39,850 nucleotides of DNA from Gemmatimonadota bacterium (GTDB lineage Bacteria > Gemmatimonadota > Gemmatimonadetes > Gemmatimonadales > GWC2-71-9). Below, piece by piece: positions 25,684-35,964 of the stretch. The DNA is taken from contig QHUJ01000123.1 in the NCBI GenBank assembly GCA_003221895.1, positions 1 to 39,850 of the forward strand. Reading direction: 5' to 3'. How positions within the stretch are numbered: position 1 is the stretch's first letter; every line of letters starts with the position of its first letter. Position numbers and translations under genes: made by a program. Under the pieces are notes generated by a model. That model was not told where the DNA came from, searched no databases, and worked only from the letters and a program-made list of their open reading frames with translations.

Positions 25684-26511
25684 GTGGCCGGCACCCTCTA
25701 CGTCGTCGCGACGCCACTCGGGAACCTCGGCGATCTCTCGCCGCGCGCCGCCGACACGCTGAAACGCGTGGCGGTGGTTGCCGCCGAAGACACCCGCCAC
25801 AGCAAACCCCTGCTGCACCACGCCGGCTCCCGCGCGGAGCTGGTGAGTTTCCACGCCCATTCGTCCGAGCGCGCCCTCGAGCACGTGTTGCGCATCCTCT
25901 CGGATGGGAGGGACGTCGCGCTCATTACGGACGCGGGGACGCCGGCGATCAGTGATCCAGGCGCTGAGCTCGTGGCGGCGGCACGGGCACGGGGAATTCC
26001 GATCGTGACCATTCCAGGTCCCACCGCCGTGGCCGCCAGCCTGGCTGTCTCCGGCATCCCTGGCGACCGCTACGTGTTTCTCGGGTTCTTGCCCCGTAAG
26101 GGGAGCGATCGCCGCCGGCTTCTTTCGACCGCCGCCTCCAGCGAGTGGACCGTCGTCCTGTTCGAAGCGCCGAATCGCGTCACCCAACTCCTCGCCGATC
26201 TGATCGAGCTGTGTGGTCCCGAAAGGCAAGCTGCCGTCTCTAGGGAGTTGACCAAGGTATTCGAGGAGACGCGTTCGGGGACGTTGCAAGAATTGTCAGA
26301 GCACTATGCAGAGGCTCCCGTGCGTGGCGAGGTTACGGTAGTGCTCGCGGGAACAGGCAAGCCGCGGGTTGAAGAGCCCGCCGCGAATCCCACCGAACGG
26401 GCGCAGATGTTGCTGGCGCAGGGAATGTCCCGAAAGGATGTCGCGGATCGTTTGGTCGAGGAGACGGGGATTTCACGCAATGCGGCATATCGATTGGTGA
26501 ACGGGCTATGA
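25684..26511 (+). CDS. rsmI: 16S rRNA (cytidine-1402-2'-O)-methyltransferase
   Basis: RsmI methylates the 2'-O of C1402 in 16S rRNA using S-adenosylmethionine, in the ribosomal P site region. The 275-residue protein has the tetrapyrrole-methylase-type fold: TLYVVATPLGNLGD at the N-terminus, AAEDTRHS, DAGTPAISDPG (SAM-binding) and IPGPTAVAASLAVSG. The C-terminal about 40 residues (MSRKDVADRLVEETGISRNAAY) form the small helix-turn-helix tail found in many RsmI proteins. The GTG start lies one base after the previous stop. The stop overlaps the DUF4159 gene by ATGA. All family motifs are intact. Confidence 0.96.
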   Translation: MAGTLYVVATPLGNLGDLSPRAADTLKRVAVVAAEDTRHSKPLLHHAGSRAELVSFHAHSSERALEHVLRILSDGRDVALITDAGTPAISDPGAELVAAARARGIPIVTIPGPTAVAASLAVSGIPGDRYVFLGFLPRKGSDRRRLLSTAASSEWTVVLFEAPNRVTQLLADLIELCGPERQAAVSRELTKVFEETRSGTLQELSEHYAEAPVRGEVTVVLAGTGKPRVEEPAANPTERAQMLLAQGMSRKDVADRLVEETGISRNAAYRLVNGL

Positions 26512-27167
26512 GAGCACTTCTTGGGGTCCTCTTGGCTGCGCTGGTTCCGGTGGGCCCCACCCCACGCACGTCCTTAACCATCGGCCGCCTCCACTACGAT
26601 GGCGGCGGAGACTGGTACGCGAATCCCTCGGCGCTACCCAACCTGTTGACCGCGCTACGCGAGCGCACGACGCTGCCGGTCACGGACCGCGAGCGTGTTG
26701 TGACGCTGACCGGGCCGGAATTGTGGGACGTCCCTTACATCTATATGACGGGCCACGGCAACGTTCACTTCTCCGATGTCGAGCTACGCAATCTGCGGCA
26801 CTACCTGGAGCAGGGCGGGTTCCTGCATGCCGACGACAATTATGGAATGGACAAGTCATTCCGCCGGGAAATCGCGCGCGTGTTTCCGGACCATCCTCTG
26901 GTTGAAGTGCCGTTGAGCCACCCGATTTACAACCTGGTCTACGCCTTCCCGAAGGGGATTCCCAAGATCCACGAGCACGACGGGCTGCCTGCCCAGGGGT
27001 TCGGGATTTTTTTGGGAGACCGCCTTGTCGTATACTATTCCTATCAGTCCGACCTCGGGAACGGTTGGGAAGACCCTGAGGTCTACCATGACCCTCCTGA
27101 GCTACATGAGGCGGCGCTGCGCATGGGCGTGAATCTCTTCACCTACGCAGTAAGCGAGAGCAAATGA
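26508..27167 (+). CDS. DUF4159 domain protein
   Basis: A 219-residue exported or membrane-tethered protein. A short hydrophobic N-terminus (MRALLGVLLAALVPVG) precedes a DUF4159 domain: IGRLHYDGGGDWYANP, VPYIYMTGHGNVHFSD, LRHYLEQGGFLHADDNYGMDKSF and HEHDGLPAQGFGIFLGDRL. The fold resembles a glutamine-amidotransferase-like or ThuA-like alpha/beta domain, and no catalytic activity is established. DUF4159 genes often stand in MoxR-DUF58-BatA-type envelope clusters. Here the immediate neighbour is a DUF4175 gene (ATGA overlap), but MoxR and DUF58 are absent in this window. No catalytic motif was recognised. Confidence 0.88.
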   Translation: MRALLGVLLAALVPVGPTPRTSLTIGRLHYDGGGDWYANPSALPNLLTALRERTTLPVTDRERVVTLTGPELWDVPYIYMTGHGNVHFSDVELRNLRHYLEQGGFLHADDNYGMDKSFRREIARVFPDHPLVEVPLSHPIYNLVYAFPKGIPKIHEHDGLPAQGFGIFLGDRLVVYYSYQSDLGNGWEDPEVYHDPPELHEAALRMGVNLFTYAVSESK

Positions 27168-30100
27168 CAGAAACGGCGCGCCGGCTGCGTCGCTTGGGGC
27201 TCCCCCACGCGCGCGCCCGCGCGTTCGCCGTGGTGCTCGGTGGCCTCGGCGCGGCGCTAGCCTGGGCTGCCCTCGGCCTCGCGCTCGCGCCCGCCGTGCC
27301 CGGGGTGACGGTCGCCTGGGTGCTGATTGCGCTCAGCGCGGCTGCCGCCGTCTGGCTCGGACTGCGCGCGCGGCGCGAGGCCGCCGACGCTCCGGTCGCC
27401 AGGCTCGTCGAGTCGGCGACCGGCGGCCGCGCCGGCAGCGTGGTCGGTGTCGTCAGCCCCACCGCAGGCACTGGCGCCGGAATGAGCCCAGCCTTGCTGC
27501 TCGCCGCGGATGCGCGGGCCGCCGCATTCGTCTCATTCGCCGCACCAACCGTCGGCACTGCGCTGCGTCGCACCACCACCCAGCGCCTGGCATTCGGTGC
27601 GGGGGCTGCATTGGTCGGCGCATTGCTCTTCGTCGCGGCCGCACCCGCGTCCGGCCGTGCCGCGGCATTCTGGCATCCGGTGCGCGCATGGCGCGATGCG
27701 CACGAGCCGGTGCGGCTGTTTGTCGATCGGCAGCGCGTGCGCCGTGGTGGCACCGTCACGGCGACGATCACGGTTCCCGGTGCCGAGCGCGTGACACTGT
27801 GGACCCGCGGCCCTGGGGAGCCGTGGAAGGCGACATTGCTTTCGCTCGATGCCGCTGGACAGGCGGTAAAGCAGGTCGGCCCGATCGAATCCGATCTCTT
27901 TCTGCGCGCGGCGAGCGGTGGCCGTTCGAGCCGAGAGATCAAAGTGGACGTGGCTCTCCCTGCATTCCTCGCAGACCTGGCACTCACCGCGCGCTTTCCT
28001 TCTTATCTCGCTCGCTCCGATGAGCCGCTGCTCATTGGACCAGATCCGATTCCGTTGCCCGCCGGCACGACGGTGCTGAGTAACGGCACGGCAAGCGTGC
28101 CACTCGCGAGCGCGGCGTGGAGGCTCGAATCCTCCCCTCAGTCCGAAGCGCTGCGCGTGGCCGGCACGCGCATCGACGGCCGTTTCACGCCGGCGGTGAG
28201 CGGCACCTGGCACCTGCACGCCTTGAGCGCCGATGGCTCCGCGCTCGAAGGCACCGCACCAGAGCTGCACCTGATCATCGTCCCCGATTCCGCGCCCGTT
28301 GTGGCGCTGCCTGTCCCCGGCCGCGATACGACGCTGCCGATTTCGCTCACCCAACAGATCGTGGCGGACGTGCGTGACGATCACGGCATCTCGCGGCTTG
28401 CAGTCGTGAGCTGGCGCGTCAGTCGCACCGGGCGGATCGACCCCGCGGTGCGTGAGTCGCTCGATGTGAGCGGTGTGGGCGATCGCGCGATTGTCCAGGG
28501 CCGTCTCGATGCCGAGAACCGCAGCCTGCTGCCGGGCGACACGCTGCGGCTGTATGTCGAGGCGTGGGACAACGCGCCTGCGCCCCATATGGGCCGCAGC
28601 CAGGAAATCGCGCTGCGTCTGCCGAGCATGGAAGAGTTGCGCGCTCAGGCGCGCCAGGCAGCGCAGGCGGTGGCAGGCGCGGCCGATTCCGTTGCGGCGG
28701 CGCAGCGTGAGTTGAGCGATCGCACGCGGGACCTGGCGCAGGAGCGAAACCGCGACACGGACGCCCGGGCTGGCGCGCGGGCGGGCAGTCAACAGCAGAG
28801 CGGCGCCATGTCGTTCCAGGCCACGCAGCGTGCCGAAGAGATCGCGCGCGATCAAGCGGCCATGTCGCAACGCGTGCAGGAGCTGGCGCAGGCGGTCGAT
28901 GAGATCGCTCGCGCGGCGAAGGCTGCGGGCGTCGATGACACGGCCTTCCAGAACCGGCTGCGCCAGGTGCAGGACCTGCTCCAACGCGCGCTGACGCCGG
29001 AGCTCGAGCAGCGGCTGCGCGAGCTGCAGGAGGCGCTCGCCCGGCTCGATCCTGAAGCCACGCGCCAGGCGCTGCAGCGTTTGGCAGAGGCTCAGCAAGA
29101 GCTGCGGCGCGAGCTGGAGCGCAGCCAGGAGCTGTTCAAGCGTGCCGCCCTGGAGGGAGAGCTCGCGTCGCTTGCCAAAGACGCGGAAGATCTGCAGCGG
29201 CGCCAGTCCGAATGGACGAAGGCAGACGCGCAACGCGCCGACTCGGCCGCGGCCGCGGCGGAGCGCGATCTCGCCGGTGCCACCGATTCGCTCGCGCGTG
29301 GCCTCGACCGCGCCGGGGAGAGCGTGCCGCTCAAGCAATCGCAGGACGCCGCGCGCGGTGCCCAGCGCGCGATGCAACAGGCGGCCAATGCCGCGAGTCA
29401 ACGCGATTCCCATAGCGCGCGACGCTCCGGTCAGGAAGCGGCCGATTCGCTCTCCCAGCTCCCCGACCAGCTGCGGCAGCGACGCGATTCGCTGGTAACG
29501 ACGTGGAAACAGGAGACGCTCGACGCGCTCGATCGCGCGCTGTCGGAGACTGCGGCGCTCGCCAAGCGGCAGGAAGACATCGTCGACGCGCTGCGCGGTG
29601 GCGAAGCCGGTGCGGCGACTCGCGCCCGCCAGGCAGCCGTCGAGGAAGGAACGCACGCGATCGGGCAGCAGATCAGCGAGGCGGCGGGACGGCACGCCCT
29701 GGTCTCCCCGCAGCTCGAGGCTGCACTCGGCTACGCCCAGAATCAGATGCGCCAGGCTCGCGAACAGCTCGAGCAGGGCGATCCGAATCCGGCGACCGCG
29801 TCTCCCTTTGCCGAACAAGCGCTCGACGCGCTGAACGCGACCGCGCACGCGCTCGTGCGTACGTCGCAGCAGGTCGCCGGCGCGCAGTCCGGCTCGGGAT
29901 TCCAGGAAGCGTTGGAGCAACTTGCGCGGATGGCGCAGCAGCAGCAGGGCATGAACGGCGAGGCGCAGGGGATGCTGCCGCTGATGGCGTCCGGGGGCCA
30001 GGCGGTCCTGCAGCGGCTGCGTGAGCTTGCGGCTCAGCAGCGCGCCCTGGCCGAGCAGCTCGAGCGCCTGCAGGCCGAGGGCGATGCCAGTGCTGCCGGA

Positions 30101-30430
30101 GAGCTGGCGCAGGAAGCGCGCGATCTGGCCCGCCAGCTCGAGGCGGGCCGGCTGGATCGCCGCACCGTCGAGCGGCAGGAGCGTCTGTACCGCAAGCTGC
30201 TCGATGCCGGCCGCAGCCTTCAGGGCGAGGAGCCGGACGAGCAGAAGCAACGGGTCAGCAAGTCCGCCATCGGTGACAGCGTCCACATCCCTGCCGCCCT
30301 GCGTCCGGGGGCCACAGGCTCAGGGCCGAAAATGCGCTATCCGACGTGGGAAGAGCTGACCGGGTTGACGCCCGAGCAGCGGCGCATGGTGCTCGAGTAC
30401 TTCCGCCGCCTGAATGAGACGAAGCCTTAG
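27164..30430 (+). CDS. DUF4175 family membrane protein with long coiled coil
   Basis: A 1088-residue protein. Three hydrophobic helices (about 18-42, 47-68 and 138-160) anchor it. They are followed by a beta-rich stretch to about 480 that looks like exported Ig-like or DUF4175 repeats (EPVRLFVDRQRVRRGG, ALTARFPSYLARSDEPL). A very long Gln/Ala/Arg/Glu-rich coiled coil runs from about 490 to 1040, and the tail ends RYPTWEELTGLTPEQRRM. The pattern matches DUF4175 proteins found next to DUF4159 and MoxR/Bat genes in several Gram-negative phyla. The role is unknown, and an envelope scaffold is likely. It is coupled to DUF4159 by ATGA, and the TPR gene starts 17 bases before its stop. A long antisense frame exists on the other strand but is a composition artefact. 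Confidence 0.85.
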   Translation: MTETARRLRRLGLPHARARAFAVVLGGLGAALAWAALGLALAPAVPGVTVAWVLIALSAAAAVWLGLRARREAADAPVARLVESATGGRAGSVVGVVSPTAGTGAGMSPALLLAADARAAAFVSFAAPTVGTALRRTTTQRLAFGAGAALVGALLFVAAAPASGRAAAFWHPVRAWRDAHEPVRLFVDRQRVRRGGTVTATITVPGAERVTLWTRGPGEPWKATLLSLDAAGQAVKQVGPIESDLFLRAASGGRSSREIKVDVALPAFLADLALTARFPSYLARSDEPLLIGPDPIPLPAGTTVLSNGTASVPLASAAWRLESSPQSEALRVAGTRIDGRFTPAVSGTWHLHALSADGSALEGTAPELHLIIVPDSAPVVALPVPGRDTTLPISLTQQIVADVRDDHGISRLAVVSWRVSRTGRIDPAVRESLDVSGVGDRAIVQGRLDAENRSLLPGDTLRLYVEAWDNAPAPHMGRSQEIALRLPSMEELRAQARQAAQAVAGAADSVAAAQRELSDRTRDLAQERNRDTDARAGARAGSQQQSGAMSFQATQRAEEIARDQAAMSQRVQELAQAVDEIARAAKAAGVDDTAFQNRLRQVQDLLQRALTPELEQRLRELQEALARLDPEATRQALQRLAEAQQELRRELERSQELFKRAALEGELASLAKDAEDLQRRQSEWTKADAQRADSAAAAAERDLAGATDSLARGLDRAGESVPLKQSQDAARGAQRAMQQAANAASQRDSHSARRSGQEAADSLSQLPDQLRQRRDSLVTTWKQETLDALDRALSETAALAKRQEDIVDALRGGEAGAATRARQAAVEEGTHAIGQQISEAAGRHALVSPQLEAALGYAQNQMRQAREQLEQGDPNPATASPFAEQALDALNATAHALVRTSQQVAGAQSGSGFQEALEQLARMAQQQQGMNGEAQGMLPLMASGGQAVLQRLRELAAQQRALAEQLERLQAEGDASAAGELAQEARDLARQLEAGRLDRRTVERQERLYRKLLDAGRSLQGEEPDEQKQRVSKSAIGDSVHIPAALRPGATGSGPKMRYPTWEELTGLTPEQRRMVLEYFRRLNETKP

Positions 30431-32132
30431 CGTAGCGCTCGGTCTGCTGCTCGCCCTGCCGGCGCTCGCCCGGGGTCAGGCTATCGGCCCCGGGTTCGAA
30501 TTGGAGCGCAGCGGCAAATACGGCGATGCGGCGACCGTTTACTTCAATACACTGCGCACCGATTCGAACAACATCCCCGCGCTGCTCGGGCTCGAACGCG
30601 TACTCTTCGTGCTCAATCGAATGCCCGAGCTGCTGCCGCTGGTGCAGCACGCCCGCGCGCGCGCGCCCGAAAACGTGGCCCTGCGCAGCCTCGAGGTGCG
30701 CGTCTACGCCGACCTGAACCAGCAGGATTCGCTGGAAGCCGTCGTGCACCGCTGGGCTGCGGCGGCACCGCAGAGTGACGCGCCCTATCGCGAATGGGGC
30801 CTGGCGCTCGCCGACCGCCGCATGTACGACGACGCGCGCAACGCCTATCTGACTGGCCGCAAAGTGTTGGGAGGCGCGGGAACGCTGGCGATCGAGCTGG
30901 CGGAGGTGGAGGAGCGGGCAGGGAACTGGGAGGCGGCGGCGCGCGAGTGGGCGCGTGCCGTCGCGGAGTCACCCGACGTCGAGCCCAACGCCGCGAGCCA
31001 GCTTTCCGATGCGCCCAGCACGATGCGCGACCGGATCGTGCGAATCCTGATCGGCCCGGACGCGGGCGTCGCAGCGCGGCGGCTTGGCGCGGAGATGTTG
31101 CTCACGTGGGGCCAGCCGAGTGAAGCATGGGCCGCCTTCGAGCCGACCCTGGCGAGCGGCGACCCCGAGACGCAGGCCGCCTTGCGGCGTTTCAGCGATC
31201 TTGCCGCAGCACTCACGACACCTGAAGCGCATCGCGTGCGCGGCCTGGCGTTGGCCCGGTGGGCGGATCTCATACCTTCACCCTTGTCGGAGCGCGCGCG
31301 CGCCGAGGCGGTGCACGAGCTGCTGGAAGGCAATGACCGCGTTGCCGCTCGGCGCGTGCTCGAGTCTCACGGCGACCCTAACGGCGTCGGCCAGGCCGCC
31401 TTGCTGCAGCTGCTGATCGCTGATGGTCAGCTCGAGGTGGTGGAGCGGCGGCTGGCGAGTGACAGCAGCGCTGGGTTAGCCGCAGACGACCGCGCCGCCT
31501 TGCGCTTGTCGCTCGCGCAGGCGCGCATCGCGCGCGGCGAGCTCGACCGCGCGACCACAGCGCTGGGAGACGACTCGAGCGTCGCGGCCCTCGCGCAACG
31601 CGGCTGGATCGCGCTGTATCACGGCGATCTGAAGGGCGCGATGGACGCATTCCGCATTGCCGGTCCGTACGCGACGGACCGCGCAGCCGCCACCGATCGC
31701 ACCGCAATGATGGCGTTGCTCCAGCGCGTGCAGGAGCCGTCCAGCCCCGAGCTGGGCGCCGCTCTTCTGACGCTCGCGCGCAGCGACTCCGTCGCGGCCG
31801 TCGGCGCGCTGCGCCATGCTGCCGGGCGACTGCCGGTGCAGGGGGGACGCCTCGAAGTCCTCCTCCTCGCGGGACAGCTGGCGGCGCGGCTCGGACCGCA
31901 GCAGGAGGTCGCCGCTGTCGCGTTGTTCGACGAAATCGTCCGTGGCGGCGGTGAAGGTGCTGCGCCCGCGGCGGCGGAGCTGGAATGGTCGCGCCTCTTG
32001 ATCCGTCAGGGGCACTCGGCCGAAGCAATTCCGCACCTCGAGCACCTGATTCTCACGTATCCCAGCAGCGCTGTCGTTCCCCAGGCGCGGCGGGAGCTGG
32101 AGCGGGCGAAGGGGGCGATACCGAAGTCATGA
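30414..32132 (+). CDS. Exported TPR protein
   Basis: A 572-residue protein with a signal peptide (MRRSLSVALGLLLALPALARGQA) and repeated 34-residue TPR-like helical pairs, for example YGDAATVYFNTLRTDSNNIP, LGLERVLFVLNRMPELLPLV and WEAAAREWARAVAESPDVEP. It ends HLEHLILTYPSSAVVPQARRELERAK, a pattern close to outer-membrane BamD/YbgF-like TPR tails. It probably assembles other proteins in the periplasm. It starts 17 bases inside the DUF4175 gene and overlaps the Tat-signal gene by ATGA, so the three are one translational unit. Function in complex assembly is inferred from the TPR fold only. Confidence 0.85.
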   Translation: MRRSLSVALGLLLALPALARGQAIGPGFELERSGKYGDAATVYFNTLRTDSNNIPALLGLERVLFVLNRMPELLPLVQHARARAPENVALRSLEVRVYADLNQQDSLEAVVHRWAAAAPQSDAPYREWGLALADRRMYDDARNAYLTGRKVLGGAGTLAIELAEVEERAGNWEAAAREWARAVAESPDVEPNAASQLSDAPSTMRDRIVRILIGPDAGVAARRLGAEMLLTWGQPSEAWAAFEPTLASGDPETQAALRRFSDLAAALTTPEAHRVRGLALARWADLIPSPLSERARAEAVHELLEGNDRVAARRVLESHGDPNGVGQAALLQLLIADGQLEVVERRLASDSSAGLAADDRAALRLSLAQARIARGELDRATTALGDDSSVAALAQRGWIALYHGDLKGAMDAFRIAGPYATDRAAATDRTAMMALLQRVQEPSSPELGAALLTLARSDSVAAVGALRHAAGRLPVQGGRLEVLLLAGQLAARLGPQQEVAAVALFDEIVRGGGEGAAPAAAELEWSRLLIRQGHSAEAIPHLEHLILTYPSSAVVPQARRELERAKGAIPKS

Positions 32133-33430
32133 AGCGGCGGGACTTTGTTCGGGCGATCGGTGGGGGGGCCGGCGGGTTGGCGGTCGGCTGGAGCGTATTG
32201 GGTTTCCGCCCGCGAGCCCGCCTGCCGGCGAGCGCGTCCCTGTTGATCCCGATGGACGATGCTCAGACCGATCACCTCAAGGCCTACGGTCTCGCCTATC
32301 GCGCCATCCAGGCCGGGCTCAAGGCCGAGTGGCTGCTCAACTATCGCGGCGGCTCGTTCCTGATTCCCGACCTCGACGCGCTACGGCGCGACGCGGCGCT
32401 GAACGGGATTCGCGCCGAGCCGGTCGACAGCGCGGTGACGTCCATCCGCGGAGAAATCGAAGCCAACAACATGGACGCCGTGCCGCTCGAGAAGGCACCC
32501 AAGGTCGCCGTGTACGCGCCGCCCAACGCCGCACCATGGGACGATGCGGTCACGATGTCGCTGCAGTATGCCGGGATTCCGTTCACCAAGATCTGGGATC
32601 CCGAGGTCGTAAACGGATCACTGCGGGACTTCGACTGGCTGCATCTGCATCATGAGGACTTTACCGGCCAGTACTCCAAGTTCTTCCTCATCTACTCCGG
32701 TATGCCGTGGCTCGCCGAGATGGTGCAGCGCAACTCTGAGATGGCGCGGCGGCTTGGCTTCCAAACGGTGCCGGATTTGAAGAAGGCGGTCGCGCGGGGC
32801 ATCCACGGGTTTGTCGAGAACGGCGGGTTTCTGTTCGCGATGTGCACAGCGACCGAAACGATCGACCTCGCCCTCGCGGCGAAGAGCGTAGACATCGCCG
32901 CGACCTTCGCCGACGGCACCCCGATCGATCCGGACGCCGATTCCAAACTCGATTGGTCTCAAAGCTTTGCCTTCACCGGGGCGCATCTCGAGCCCAATCC
33001 GCTGGTGGCGAGCTTCTCCGATATCGACGGTCATCAGGTGAACGGCGGCTCCCGCCGCCAGCCGCTCGGCGCGTTCAAGCTCTTCAACTTCAGCGCCAAG
33101 ATCGATCCCGTGCCGACGATGCTGGTGCAGAATCATCGCAGTGTGATCCCCGATTTCTACGGGTTGACCACGTCGTTCATGCGCAATCGTCTCAAACCGG
33201 GCGCCACCATCATGGGCGACGAAGAGAGCGCGCCGTGGGTGAAGTACATTCACGGCGACCTGGGGAAGGGAACCTGGACATTCTTCGGCGGGCACGATCC
33301 CGAGGACGCACAACACCAGATCGGTGATCCTCCCACGGATCTGTCGCTGCATCCGCATTCGCCGGGTTACCGGTTGATCTTGAACAACGTGCTCTTTCCC
33401 GCAGCCAAGAAGCGCGAGCTCAAGACGTGA
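32129..33430 (+). CDS. Tat-exported protein of the family often labelled 'asparagine synthetase B'
   Basis: A 433-residue protein whose N-terminus (MKRRDFVRAIGGGAGG) is a twin-arginine signal, so it is exported folded. The mature part has LLIPMDDAQTDHLKAYGLAY, WLLNYRGGSFLIPD, KVAVYAPPNAAPWDDAVT and DWLHLHHEDFTGQYSKF. I recall this pattern from Bacteroidota proteins annotated asparagine synthetase B, but no N-type amidotransferase or AsnB domain can be seen, so that label looks like a misannotation. A glutamine-amidotransferase-like alpha/beta fold is possible (ENGGFLFAMCTATETIDLAL). The upstream frame to 31985 lies inside the TPR gene; ATG 32129 gives the Tat signal. No function is claimed. 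Confidence 0.75.
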   Translation: MKRRDFVRAIGGGAGGLAVGWSVLGFRPRARLPASASLLIPMDDAQTDHLKAYGLAYRAIQAGLKAEWLLNYRGGSFLIPDLDALRRDAALNGIRAEPVDSAVTSIRGEIEANNMDAVPLEKAPKVAVYAPPNAAPWDDAVTMSLQYAGIPFTKIWDPEVVNGSLRDFDWLHLHHEDFTGQYSKFFLIYSGMPWLAEMVQRNSEMARRLGFQTVPDLKKAVARGIHGFVENGGFLFAMCTATETIDLALAAKSVDIAATFADGTPIDPDADSKLDWSQSFAFTGAHLEPNPLVASFSDIDGHQVNGGSRRQPLGAFKLFNFSAKIDPVPTMLVQNHRSVIPDFYGLTTSFMRNRLKPGATIMGDEESAPWVKYIHGDLGKGTWTFFGGHDPEDAQHQIGDPPTDLSLHPHSPGYRLILNNVLFPAAKKRELKT

Positions 33431-35964
33431 GCGTCGAGCGCCTGGTGGCGGCCGCGCGAACCCTGATGCAGGACGAGATCGCCGCGGCCCACGGGCGCGA
33501 GGTGTCGTTCGTGGTGCGCGCCGACGCCAACGGCACGCTCGCGGACGCACGCGTCGTGGCACGGGGCACGATCGACGCGGTGCTCGCGCTTCCCGGGGTC
33601 GCCACGCGCGGCGAGATGTTGCTCCACAACCATCCCAGCGGCTTCCTCGAGCCCTCCGGCGCAGATCTCCACGTCGCGGCGCGGCTGCATGACGAAGGGG
33701 TTGGCTTTGGTATAGTCGACAACGCCGTGAACGCGTTGTACGTGGTAGTCGAATGTCCGCGCGCGCGCACGCTCACCCGGCTCGATTCCCTGGATGTCGC
33801 GAACCTCCTCACCGAGTCTGGTCCTGTCGCCCGGGTCCTCGGGTCGACGGCGTTCGAAGATCGTCCGGGGCAGCGCGACATGGCGGCCTACATCGCCGAC
33901 ACCTACAACGACGGCGGGATTGCGCTGCTCGAGGCGGGCACGGGGGTCGGCAAGTCGTTCGCCTATCTCGTCCCGGCGCTCGAATGGGCGCGCGTGAACG
34001 GCGAGCGCACGATCGTCTCGACGAACACGATCAATCTGCAGGAGCAGCTCGTCGGTAAGGACCTGCCGATTCTCGCGCGCGCCTTCTCCAGCGGCGAGCG
34101 CGCCGTGACCTTCGCGCTGCTCAAGGGATGGCGGAACTATCTCTGTCTCTCACGGCTCGAGCAGGCGCGCGCGGGCCAGGAGTCGCTGTTCGACAACGCG
34201 CGCGCCGCCGAGCTCGAGGCCATCGCAGGCTGGGCCTCCCGAACCGCCGACGGCAGCCTCGCCGATCTGGTGGAAGAGCCGTCGAGCGAAGTCTGGGACG
34301 CGGTGGCGGCCGAGTCGGACCTGTGCACGCGACTCAAATGCCCCCACTTCGATCAGTGCTTTGTGTTCGCGGCGCGACGCCGCGCCGCCGAGGCCGATGT
34401 CGTCGTCGTCAATCACCACCTGCTCGCCTCCGACCTCGCGGTGCGCATCGCGTCCGACAATTGGCAGGAAGCGGCGGTGCTGCCACCCTACCGCCGGCTG
34501 GTGCTCGACGAAGCGCACCATCTCGAGGACGTCGCCGCCCAGCATCTTGGCACCCAGGTCAGCATGATCGGCGTGCAGCGGCTGCTGGGCCGCCTGGAGC
34601 GCAACGGGCGCGGCCTGTTACCCACGCTCGCTCTGGAGCTCGGGACCCGCGATGACCTGCTGGCCTCGGCGAGCCGCGATCTGCTCACGCGCACGGTATT
34701 CGACGCGCTCGTGGCGGCGCGGCGCTGGGCCGATGAGCTGTTCGGCCGATTGGCAAAGCGGCTGGATGCGGAGCAGGGCACGGCGCCCGTGCTGCGATTG
34801 ACCGATGCGTTCTCGAGTGACGGCGTGTGGCGCGAGGGGCTCGATGTCGCCCTCGATAATCTGCTCGTCGCCTTCTCCAAGCTGCGCGACAGTGTCGAGA
34901 CGATCGCCGACCGCCTCTCGATCGACGATCCCGCCGAGATGCGCACGCGATTGATCGGCGAGCTGCGTGGCGTGGTTCGTCGCCTCGACTCGGCTGCGGA
35001 GGGTCTCAAGGCGACGTTGCAGCCTGTCGGGTTCAAGGTGCCTGCCGGTCCCGCGGTCCGCTGGCTGGAACGACGCGGACGCCGTACGCCCAACCTCACG
35101 CTCTCCGCAGTGCCACTCGACCTCGCGCCGGTCCTGAAGGACGCGCTGTTCGATCGCGTGGAGACGGTCGTCCTCACGAGCGCCACGTTGGCCGCCGGCG
35201 GCGAGTTCACATTCCTCGAGGAGCGCCTCGGCCTGTCGCTGCCGCCGTCGCGGGTCGTGGTGCGCGAGGTCCTGCCGTCGCCGTTCGATTTCGGCGCGCA
35301 ATGCGTCTTCGGGATTCCCACCGACATTCCCGAGCCGCGCGACGACGAGTCCGGACATGGAGCCGCGGTGTCGCGCGTGCTGCTCGAGCTGGCGCACGCG
35401 TCCGACGGGGGCATCTTCGCGCTGTTCACGAGCCACGGGGCGCTGCGCCGCACCGCCGACACGATCCGCGGGCAGTTGAGCGGGCGCTGGCCGCTCCTGG
35501 TCCAGGGTGAGGGGCAGCGCGACCAGTTGCTCCGCCGCTTCCGCGATGCCGGCTCCGCGATTCTGCTGGGAACCGATTCGTTCTGGGAAGGCGTCGACGT
35601 CCCGGGCCGCGCCCTGCGGGTATTGATCCTCGCGAAGCTTCCGTTCAAGGTGCCAACCGAACCGCTAACTGCCGCCCGGCTGGAGCGTCTCACGGAGGCG
35701 GGCGTCGATGGCTTCACGCATTACCTCGTGCCGCTCGCCGCGCTCAAGCTGAAACAGGGGTTCGGCCGATTGATTCGCACCAAATCGGATGTGGGCGCGG
35801 TAGTACTCCTGGACCGGCGAGTCGTAACGAAACGGTATGGGATCACGATGCTGGAGGGCCTCCCCCCCGCCACGAGAGCGATCGGCAACTGGCCGGATGT
35901 GCGGCGCGAGCTGGAAGAATTCTTTGCAATGCACAGCATCGGCGTGCCCGCGTCCTCGAGCTAG
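33427..35964 (+). CDS. JAMM-domain/DinG-type XPD-family helicase fusion
   Basis: An 845-residue fusion. Residues 1 to about 130 contain a JAMM (JAB/RadC-like) motif, H67-x-H69-x7-S77-x2-D80 (HNHPSGFLEPSGAD), with E24 as a possible catalytic Glu. The remainder is an XPD/DinG superfamily 2 helicase: Walker A with K176 (GTGVGKSF), DEAH box D361-H364 and four cysteines C240, C300, C305 and C311 placed as in 4Fe-4S XPD/DinG proteins. The C-terminal helicase motifs follow (LTSATLAAGGEFTF, GTDSFWEGVD, QGFGRLIRTKSD). Firmicute DinG carries an exonuclease instead; here a JAMM module takes that place. Expected role: 5'-3' unwinding of structured DNA such as R-loops, with the JAMM domain's activity unknown. 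The GTG overlaps the preceding stop (GTGA). Confidence 0.9.
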   Translation: MSVERLVAAARTLMQDEIAAAHGREVSFVVRADANGTLADARVVARGTIDAVLALPGVATRGEMLLHNHPSGFLEPSGADLHVAARLHDEGVGFGIVDNAVNALYVVVECPRARTLTRLDSLDVANLLTESGPVARVLGSTAFEDRPGQRDMAAYIADTYNDGGIALLEAGTGVGKSFAYLVPALEWARVNGERTIVSTNTINLQEQLVGKDLPILARAFSSGERAVTFALLKGWRNYLCLSRLEQARAGQESLFDNARAAELEAIAGWASRTADGSLADLVEEPSSEVWDAVAAESDLCTRLKCPHFDQCFVFAARRRAAEADVVVVNHHLLASDLAVRIASDNWQEAAVLPPYRRLVLDEAHHLEDVAAQHLGTQVSMIGVQRLLGRLERNGRGLLPTLALELGTRDDLLASASRDLLTRTVFDALVAARRWADELFGRLAKRLDAEQGTAPVLRLTDAFSSDGVWREGLDVALDNLLVAFSKLRDSVETIADRLSIDDPAEMRTRLIGELRGVVRRLDSAAEGLKATLQPVGFKVPAGPAVRWLERRGRRTPNLTLSAVPLDLAPVLKDALFDRVETVVLTSATLAAGGEFTFLEERLGLSLPPSRVVVREVLPSPFDFGAQCVFGIPTDIPEPRDDESGHGAAVSRVLLELAHASDGGIFALFTSHGALRRTADTIRGQLSGRWPLLVQGEGQRDQLLRRFRDAGSAILLGTDSFWEGVDVPGRALRVLILAKLPFKVPTEPLTAARLERLTEAGVDGFTHYLVPLAALKLKQGFGRLIRTKSDVGAVVLLDRRVVTKRYGITMLEGLPPATRAIGNWPDVRRELEEFFAMHSIGVPASSS

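Follow-up and report, generated by a model that had tools for sequence, protein, structure and literature searches.

A RadC-type JAMM domain joined to a DinG/YoaA-like helicase: conservation through the class Gemmatimonadetes, repeated loss, and a putative pseudo-JAMM in Fusobacterium

RadC is found very widely among bacteria and is not known to have an accepted function. Its canonical form (PF04002; structure 2qlc) shares with the protein described here the JAMM fold and an HNHPSG...PS..D signature, at 20-25% identity between our protein and solved RadC, whereas the present protein lacks the N-terminal HhH region, is fused to a helicase, and is encoded apart from the RadC of the same genome. 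Fusions of RadC with DinG/RAD3 helicases were noted in 2017 by Iyer, Aravind and colleagues (PMC5512222), and a subgroup was named 'RadC-like DinG', and called unstudied, in Cheng 2025 (PMC11981726), which reports it in Desulfuromonas and holds a Zn-site model for proteins of other bacteria. As in the Desulfuromonas soudanensis model of that paper, the present protein has an N-terminal RadC-like domain with an E/H/H/D site and a YoaA-like helicase with arch and predicted Fe-S regions, and HolC is lacking; a helix modelled at its C-terminus may correspond to the one described there. The architecture is hence already known, contrary to the novelty implied by the initial annotation; what is added here is the constraint across a whole class, the evidence that the module was lost or decayed several times over, and a putative pseudo-JAMM in Fusobacterium. 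The accessible main text of Cheng 2025 does not name Gemmatimonadota, and its available parts make no mention of module loss or degeneration or of the Fusobacterium case. Among other described systems, ExoDinG (DnaQ-DinG, e.g., Staphylococcus aureus DinG, 8zef) likewise carries an extra N-terminal enzymatic domain on DinG, there a DnaQ exonuclease and here a JAMM domain. The eukaryotic pair FANCJ-SPRTN, also an XPD-family helicase with a metalloprotease, offers a works-like analogy only, as it consists of two proteins and its protease fold is unrelated.

The gene was found in a 39,850-nucleotide stretch of contig QHUJ01000123.1 (hereafter the window) from a soil Gemmatimonadota bacterium, whose genome comprises 3.7 Mb in 250 contigs and whose closest relatives with a name are genomes assembled from metagenomes and assigned to Gemmatimonadetes. 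Its open reading frame encodes an N-terminal RadC-type JAMM domain joined to an XPD-family DinG/YoaA-like Fe-S helicase (Table 1). The interval first assigned to the fusion, 33427-33830, covers the JAMM half, while the full gene runs to 35964. A chance motif or pseudogene was ruled out by the profile match, the fold, the residue invariance, and the long open frame. A mobile-element origin was likewise rejected, with no relatives among viral contigs and with the phage and plasmid matches listed covering the helicase part only, Fusobacterium excepted. A defence or CRISPR DinG appears unlikely, as the PADLOC Csf4/typeIV_DinG matches were restricted to the helicase part from residue 132 onward.

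Table 1. Coordinates of the fusion gene, its domains and motifs, and the surrounding gene run in the window.
Feature	Position	Strand	Basis
RadC-like (JAMM) DinG/YoaA-like helicase gene	33427..35964	+	open 845-aa ORF, GTG start
RadC-type JAMM/JAB domain, residues about 5-112	33439..33762	+	Pfam PF04002, AF2 model, PDB fold matches
E25, JAMM catalytic glutamate	33499..33501	+	invariant in 128 distinct domains
H67-N68-H69, predicted zinc ligands H67 and H69 (RadC-type HNHPSG)	33625..33633	+	invariant in 128 distinct domains
S77 and D80 of JAMM motif	33655..33666	+	invariant in 128 distinct domains
XPD-family DinG/YoaA-like helicase, residues 127-832	33805..35922	+	NCBIfam YoaA/DinG; Foldseek 6fwr, 8zef
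Walker A AGTGVGKS (170-177)	33934..33957	+	motif
Putative 4Fe-4S cysteines C240, C300, C305, C311	34144..34359	+	four Cys
DEAH box (361-364)	34507..34518	+	motif
Helicase motif VI QGFGRLIR (777-784)	35755..35778	+	motif
C-terminal helix (822-835)	35890..35931	+	full-length AF2 model; position of alpha7 helix in YoaA/RadC-like DinG, no detailed alignment
Closely packed, mostly overlapping gene run with JAMM-DinG as last gene	25684-35964	+	ORF layout
Tat-like-signal protein (MKRRDFVRAIGGG), 433 aa	32129-33430	+	directly upstream of JAMM-DinG, overlapping

For the N-terminal half, the Pfam model PF04002 ('RadC-like JAB domain') matched residues 10-94 with 29.5 bits (cut-off 22.1), and the full-length RadC models, which comprise HhH plus JAB, scored low (NF000642, 26.9 bits against a cut-off of 180; TIGR00608, 22.2 bits against 133.85). 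The motif H-x-H-x7-S-x2-D is formed by H67, H69, S77, and D80, exactly as initially annotated, and the set is completed by E25, which had not been named and whose counterpart in JAMM enzymes acts on the catalytic water, not on the zinc. An AlphaFold2 model of residues 1-135, built from a 28-sequence alignment, reached a pLDDT of 85.6 and a pTM of 0.73; its top PDB matches by Foldseek were Chlorobium tepidum RadC (2qlc), followed by CSN5, the MPN-fold subunit of EMC, and archaeal Rpn11, and VIA-align gave Z values of 8.5-10.4 against Rpn11, PfJAMM1, BubCD, BRCC36, and RadC. The JAMM fold originally proposed thus recurs in the model, as matches to RadC, Rpn11, CSN5, and PfJAMM1. Judging by its HNHPSG motif and Pfam RadC match, the fused domain is a member of the RadC clade of JAMM, and the modelled MPN fold with a complete E...HxHx7SxxD is of the JAMM/MPN+ type, with a predicted zinc-hydrolase site that appears intact.

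The helicase half bore out its description as an XPD/DinG protein with Walker A, DEAH box, and four cysteines. It scored 547 bits against YoaA and 412-445 bits against DinG models of NCBIfam, all under the equivalog cut-offs; E. coli YoaA is thus the nearest helicase model, yet the protein remains below the cut-off of 680 of the YoaA equivalog (NF053712). HolC (PF04364), the partner of YoaA, was absent from all 61 genomes of the class searched, the source genome included, whereas it was detected in the control genomes of E. coli and Caulobacter. The full-length AlphaFold2 model was weaker than that of the JAMM half (pLDDT 73, pTM 0.66), and its best Foldseek matches were E. coli DinG (6fwr) and S. 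aureus DinG (8zef). In families f4-f6 (L197-L202 and L207-L212), which lie outside the order of the window's genome, a serine aligns to C240 and the three other Fe-S cysteines remain.

The fusion gene closes a run of genes encoding, in order, an RsmI-like methylase, DUF4159, a 1088-aa protein, a TPR protein, the Tat-like-signal protein, and JAMM-DinG, whose GTG start overlaps the stop of the gene before it (GTGA). Much of this order is kept over the class. The 433-aa Tat-like protein shows about 59-75% identity to homologues sampled across the class, and more in close relatives; it had no match in Pfam, NCBIfam, or PDB. No hint of a repair pathway was found among the neighbour genes, so that the synteny speaks for orthology and not for function.

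Substantial matches to the window protein were found at 32 genome loci, all in Gemmatimonadota, and its first 210 residues were matched in 247 of 298 genomes of the phylum, helicase-only matches included. In all, 169 N-terminal regions were gathered and scored as intact when E25, H67, H69, S77, and D80 were all present, which applied to 146 rows, or 128 distinct domains; the remaining rows were truncated where a contig stops or were masked, were without the domain, or fell into the degenerate set. In the 128 intact-scored domains the five residues are by definition kept in full, N68 and P70 are likewise kept in 100%, and the same five residues are invariant among 31 close relatives. This invariance across 128 domains argues that selection acts on the metal site itself. 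Searching the two halves separately and predicting the structure, as had been proposed, therefore upheld both the fold with its zinc site and the expected conservation of the fusion across a clade, and close homologues had not lost the His/Asp ligands.

The fusion is carried by families f1-f6 of the class. Most of f7, and those members of f8, f9, and f11 that were checked, gave no match to the first 210 residues. In most sampled families JAMM-DinG sits at one locus with the same upstream neighbours, indicating that the fusion is not an accident of assembly or annotation; it is vertically inherited at one syntenic locus through the class Gemmatimonadetes. (In genome G049 the JAMM-DinG gene appears split, probably because the contigs end there.) Most fusion-bearing genomes, the window's own included, also hold a canonical RadC as a separate gene, seen as a second PF04002 match of about 1e-40, and some (e.g., genera g64 and g74 of family f5) have the weak fused PF04002 match only and no match for a canonical RadC. 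With canonical RadC encoded elsewhere or giving no match, a stray RadC does not account for the fused domain. That a genome's RadC was recently captured by the helicase was likewise rejected, given the separate canonical gene together with the class-wide fusion at one locus.

Against this constraint stand several natural losses. The JAMM core is missing and the helicase present in family f2 (g31, g33, and g36) and family f5 (g65 and g71); in genus g33 (L069-L071) the first helix remains and leads directly into the linker, which looks like a precise internal excision of the core. In three further genomes, G110 and G122 (both g78) and G132, the domain can still be aligned and its site has decayed, the E/H/H/S/D positions reading R/L/Q/S/E, S/I/H/S/E, and K/H/R/L/E, respectively. 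When module states are mapped by parsimony, with Fusobacterium in the count, onto a tree inferred from residues 1-230 of the helicase, at least seven changes are required; the well-supported (starred) branches alone force only two. About four deletions and about two losses of metal ligands may be counted, a figure that relies on moderately supported branches, and the direction is read as loss rather than gain because the intact form is spread through the class. In orthologues without the module or with a decayed site, the helicase motifs persist (Walker A, a DEAH or DEGH box, and motif VI), and the same upstream gene precedes the helicase in G026, G132, G110, G070, and G035, indicating true orthologues. 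Since deleted and ligand-less orthologues exist, the module is not required by the helicase: it is dispensable for helicase survival.

Outside the phylum, Fusobacterium vincentii (NZ_CP084075.1) encodes an 822-aa DinG (L089, 3818-6286) with 31% identity over residues 59-830 of the window protein. A broader HMM built from the domains of Gemmatimonadota gave its N-terminus 18.8 bits, compared with at most 2.0 bits in 300 shuffles, and this N-terminus bears S, R, T, S, and E at the five JAMM positions. An earlier profile (A1) gave a hhalign probability of 2% against it, and the A1 model did not detect it in NZ_CP084075.1. On the alignment, the Fusobacterium N-terminus is taken to be a degenerate, ligand-less pseudo-JAMM. 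The 2.1-Mb record NZ_CP084075.1 is labelled a plasmid and resembles a chromosome. In Pseudomonadota, 30 of 398 genomes had a domain match, none of the 30 in a DinG-sized frame.

The protein is best read as a RadC-like DinG, and its JAMM module is probably a catalytic accessory module, whatever its substrate (probability roughly 0.7). The helicase would load on single-stranded DNA, travel along it, and unwind the duplex, and the JAMM module would hydrolyse something that the motor exposes or meets, as an accessory activity in DNA repair. The deletions in g31/g33, g36, g65, and g71 and the decayed sites in g78 and G132, all with helicase motifs retained, weigh against this reading, as do neighbour genes that give no repair context. 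The same losses lend themselves to a structural, docking, or regulatory domain in which the zinc site would serve folding or binding instead of catalysis: recognisable domains with decayed sites persist in G110/G122, G132, and Fusobacterium, the helicase is complete after whole-domain deletions, and a pseudo-exonuclease subgroup, pExoDinG, occurs in the same helicase group according to Cheng 2025 (PMC11981726). We nevertheless consider such a role unlikely, because E25, for which a purely structural zinc site would have no need, is conserved just as strictly as the zinc ligands, and because most of the sequences sampled across the class retain all of EHHSD.

As to what a catalytic module would cut, the computed evidence does not separate peptide from nucleic-acid cleavage. 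All biochemically characterised JAMM enzymes are, to our knowledge, amide hydrolases. FANCJ, a eukaryotic helicase of the XPD family, unfolds DNA-protein crosslinks and thereby allows their cleavage by the metalloprotease SPRTN (PMC12279946). From these two points, and by analogy, a protein bound or crosslinked to DNA may tentatively be preferred as the target; the more specific picture of a single-chain machine for DNA-protein-crosslink repair, in which the helicase pulls or unfolds the adduct and the built-in JAMM protease cuts it, as FANCJ plus SPRTN in one polypeptide, seems improbable. A metal-dependent nuclease or nucleotide-processing domain, making the protein a helicase-nuclease like ExoDinG (DnaQ) or EndoDinG, is somewhat less likely than a protein-directed activity, although it has been argued for by Aravind's group: Iyer, Aravind and colleagues proposed it from the nuclease-equivalent position that the domain occupies in DinG and other fusions and from the lack of a ubiquitin-tail groove in the RadC clade (PMC5512222, PMC3482391). 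Other N-terminal partners of DinG are nucleases according to Cheng 2025 (PMC11981726), where, however, a DALI search gave no similarity to nucleases. Here too the best structural matches were MPN/JAMM proteins, with no nuclease among the top PDB rows of Foldseek or VIA-align, and the mild acidity of the fused domains (mean net charge -3.7, pI 5.6) weakly disfavours a nucleic-acid substrate, yet canonical RadC JAB domains look alike. The proximity of the fold to Rpn11 and CSN5 could recall an isopeptidase that removes a ubiquitin-like tag where DNA unwinds, one of several possibilities raised in the initial annotation. This is the least likely reading, and a very improbable one, given a RadC-clade domain in which the ubiquitin-tail groove is reported absent (PMC5512222) and the absence from the source genome of Prok-E2_B, the one E2 family tested, which exceeded its cut-off in 2 of 61 genomes of the class. 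Those two matches (G067:C44:7114-7422 and G032:C4:194886-195188) possibly mark bacterial ubiquitin-like conjugation systems.

In this protein the catalytic domain of RadC is carried on a helicase with full active-site constraint through most of the class, and it has also undergone several natural deletions and inactivations. This natural mutant set could help to show what the RadC-type JAMM site hydrolyses, DNA or DNA-bound protein.
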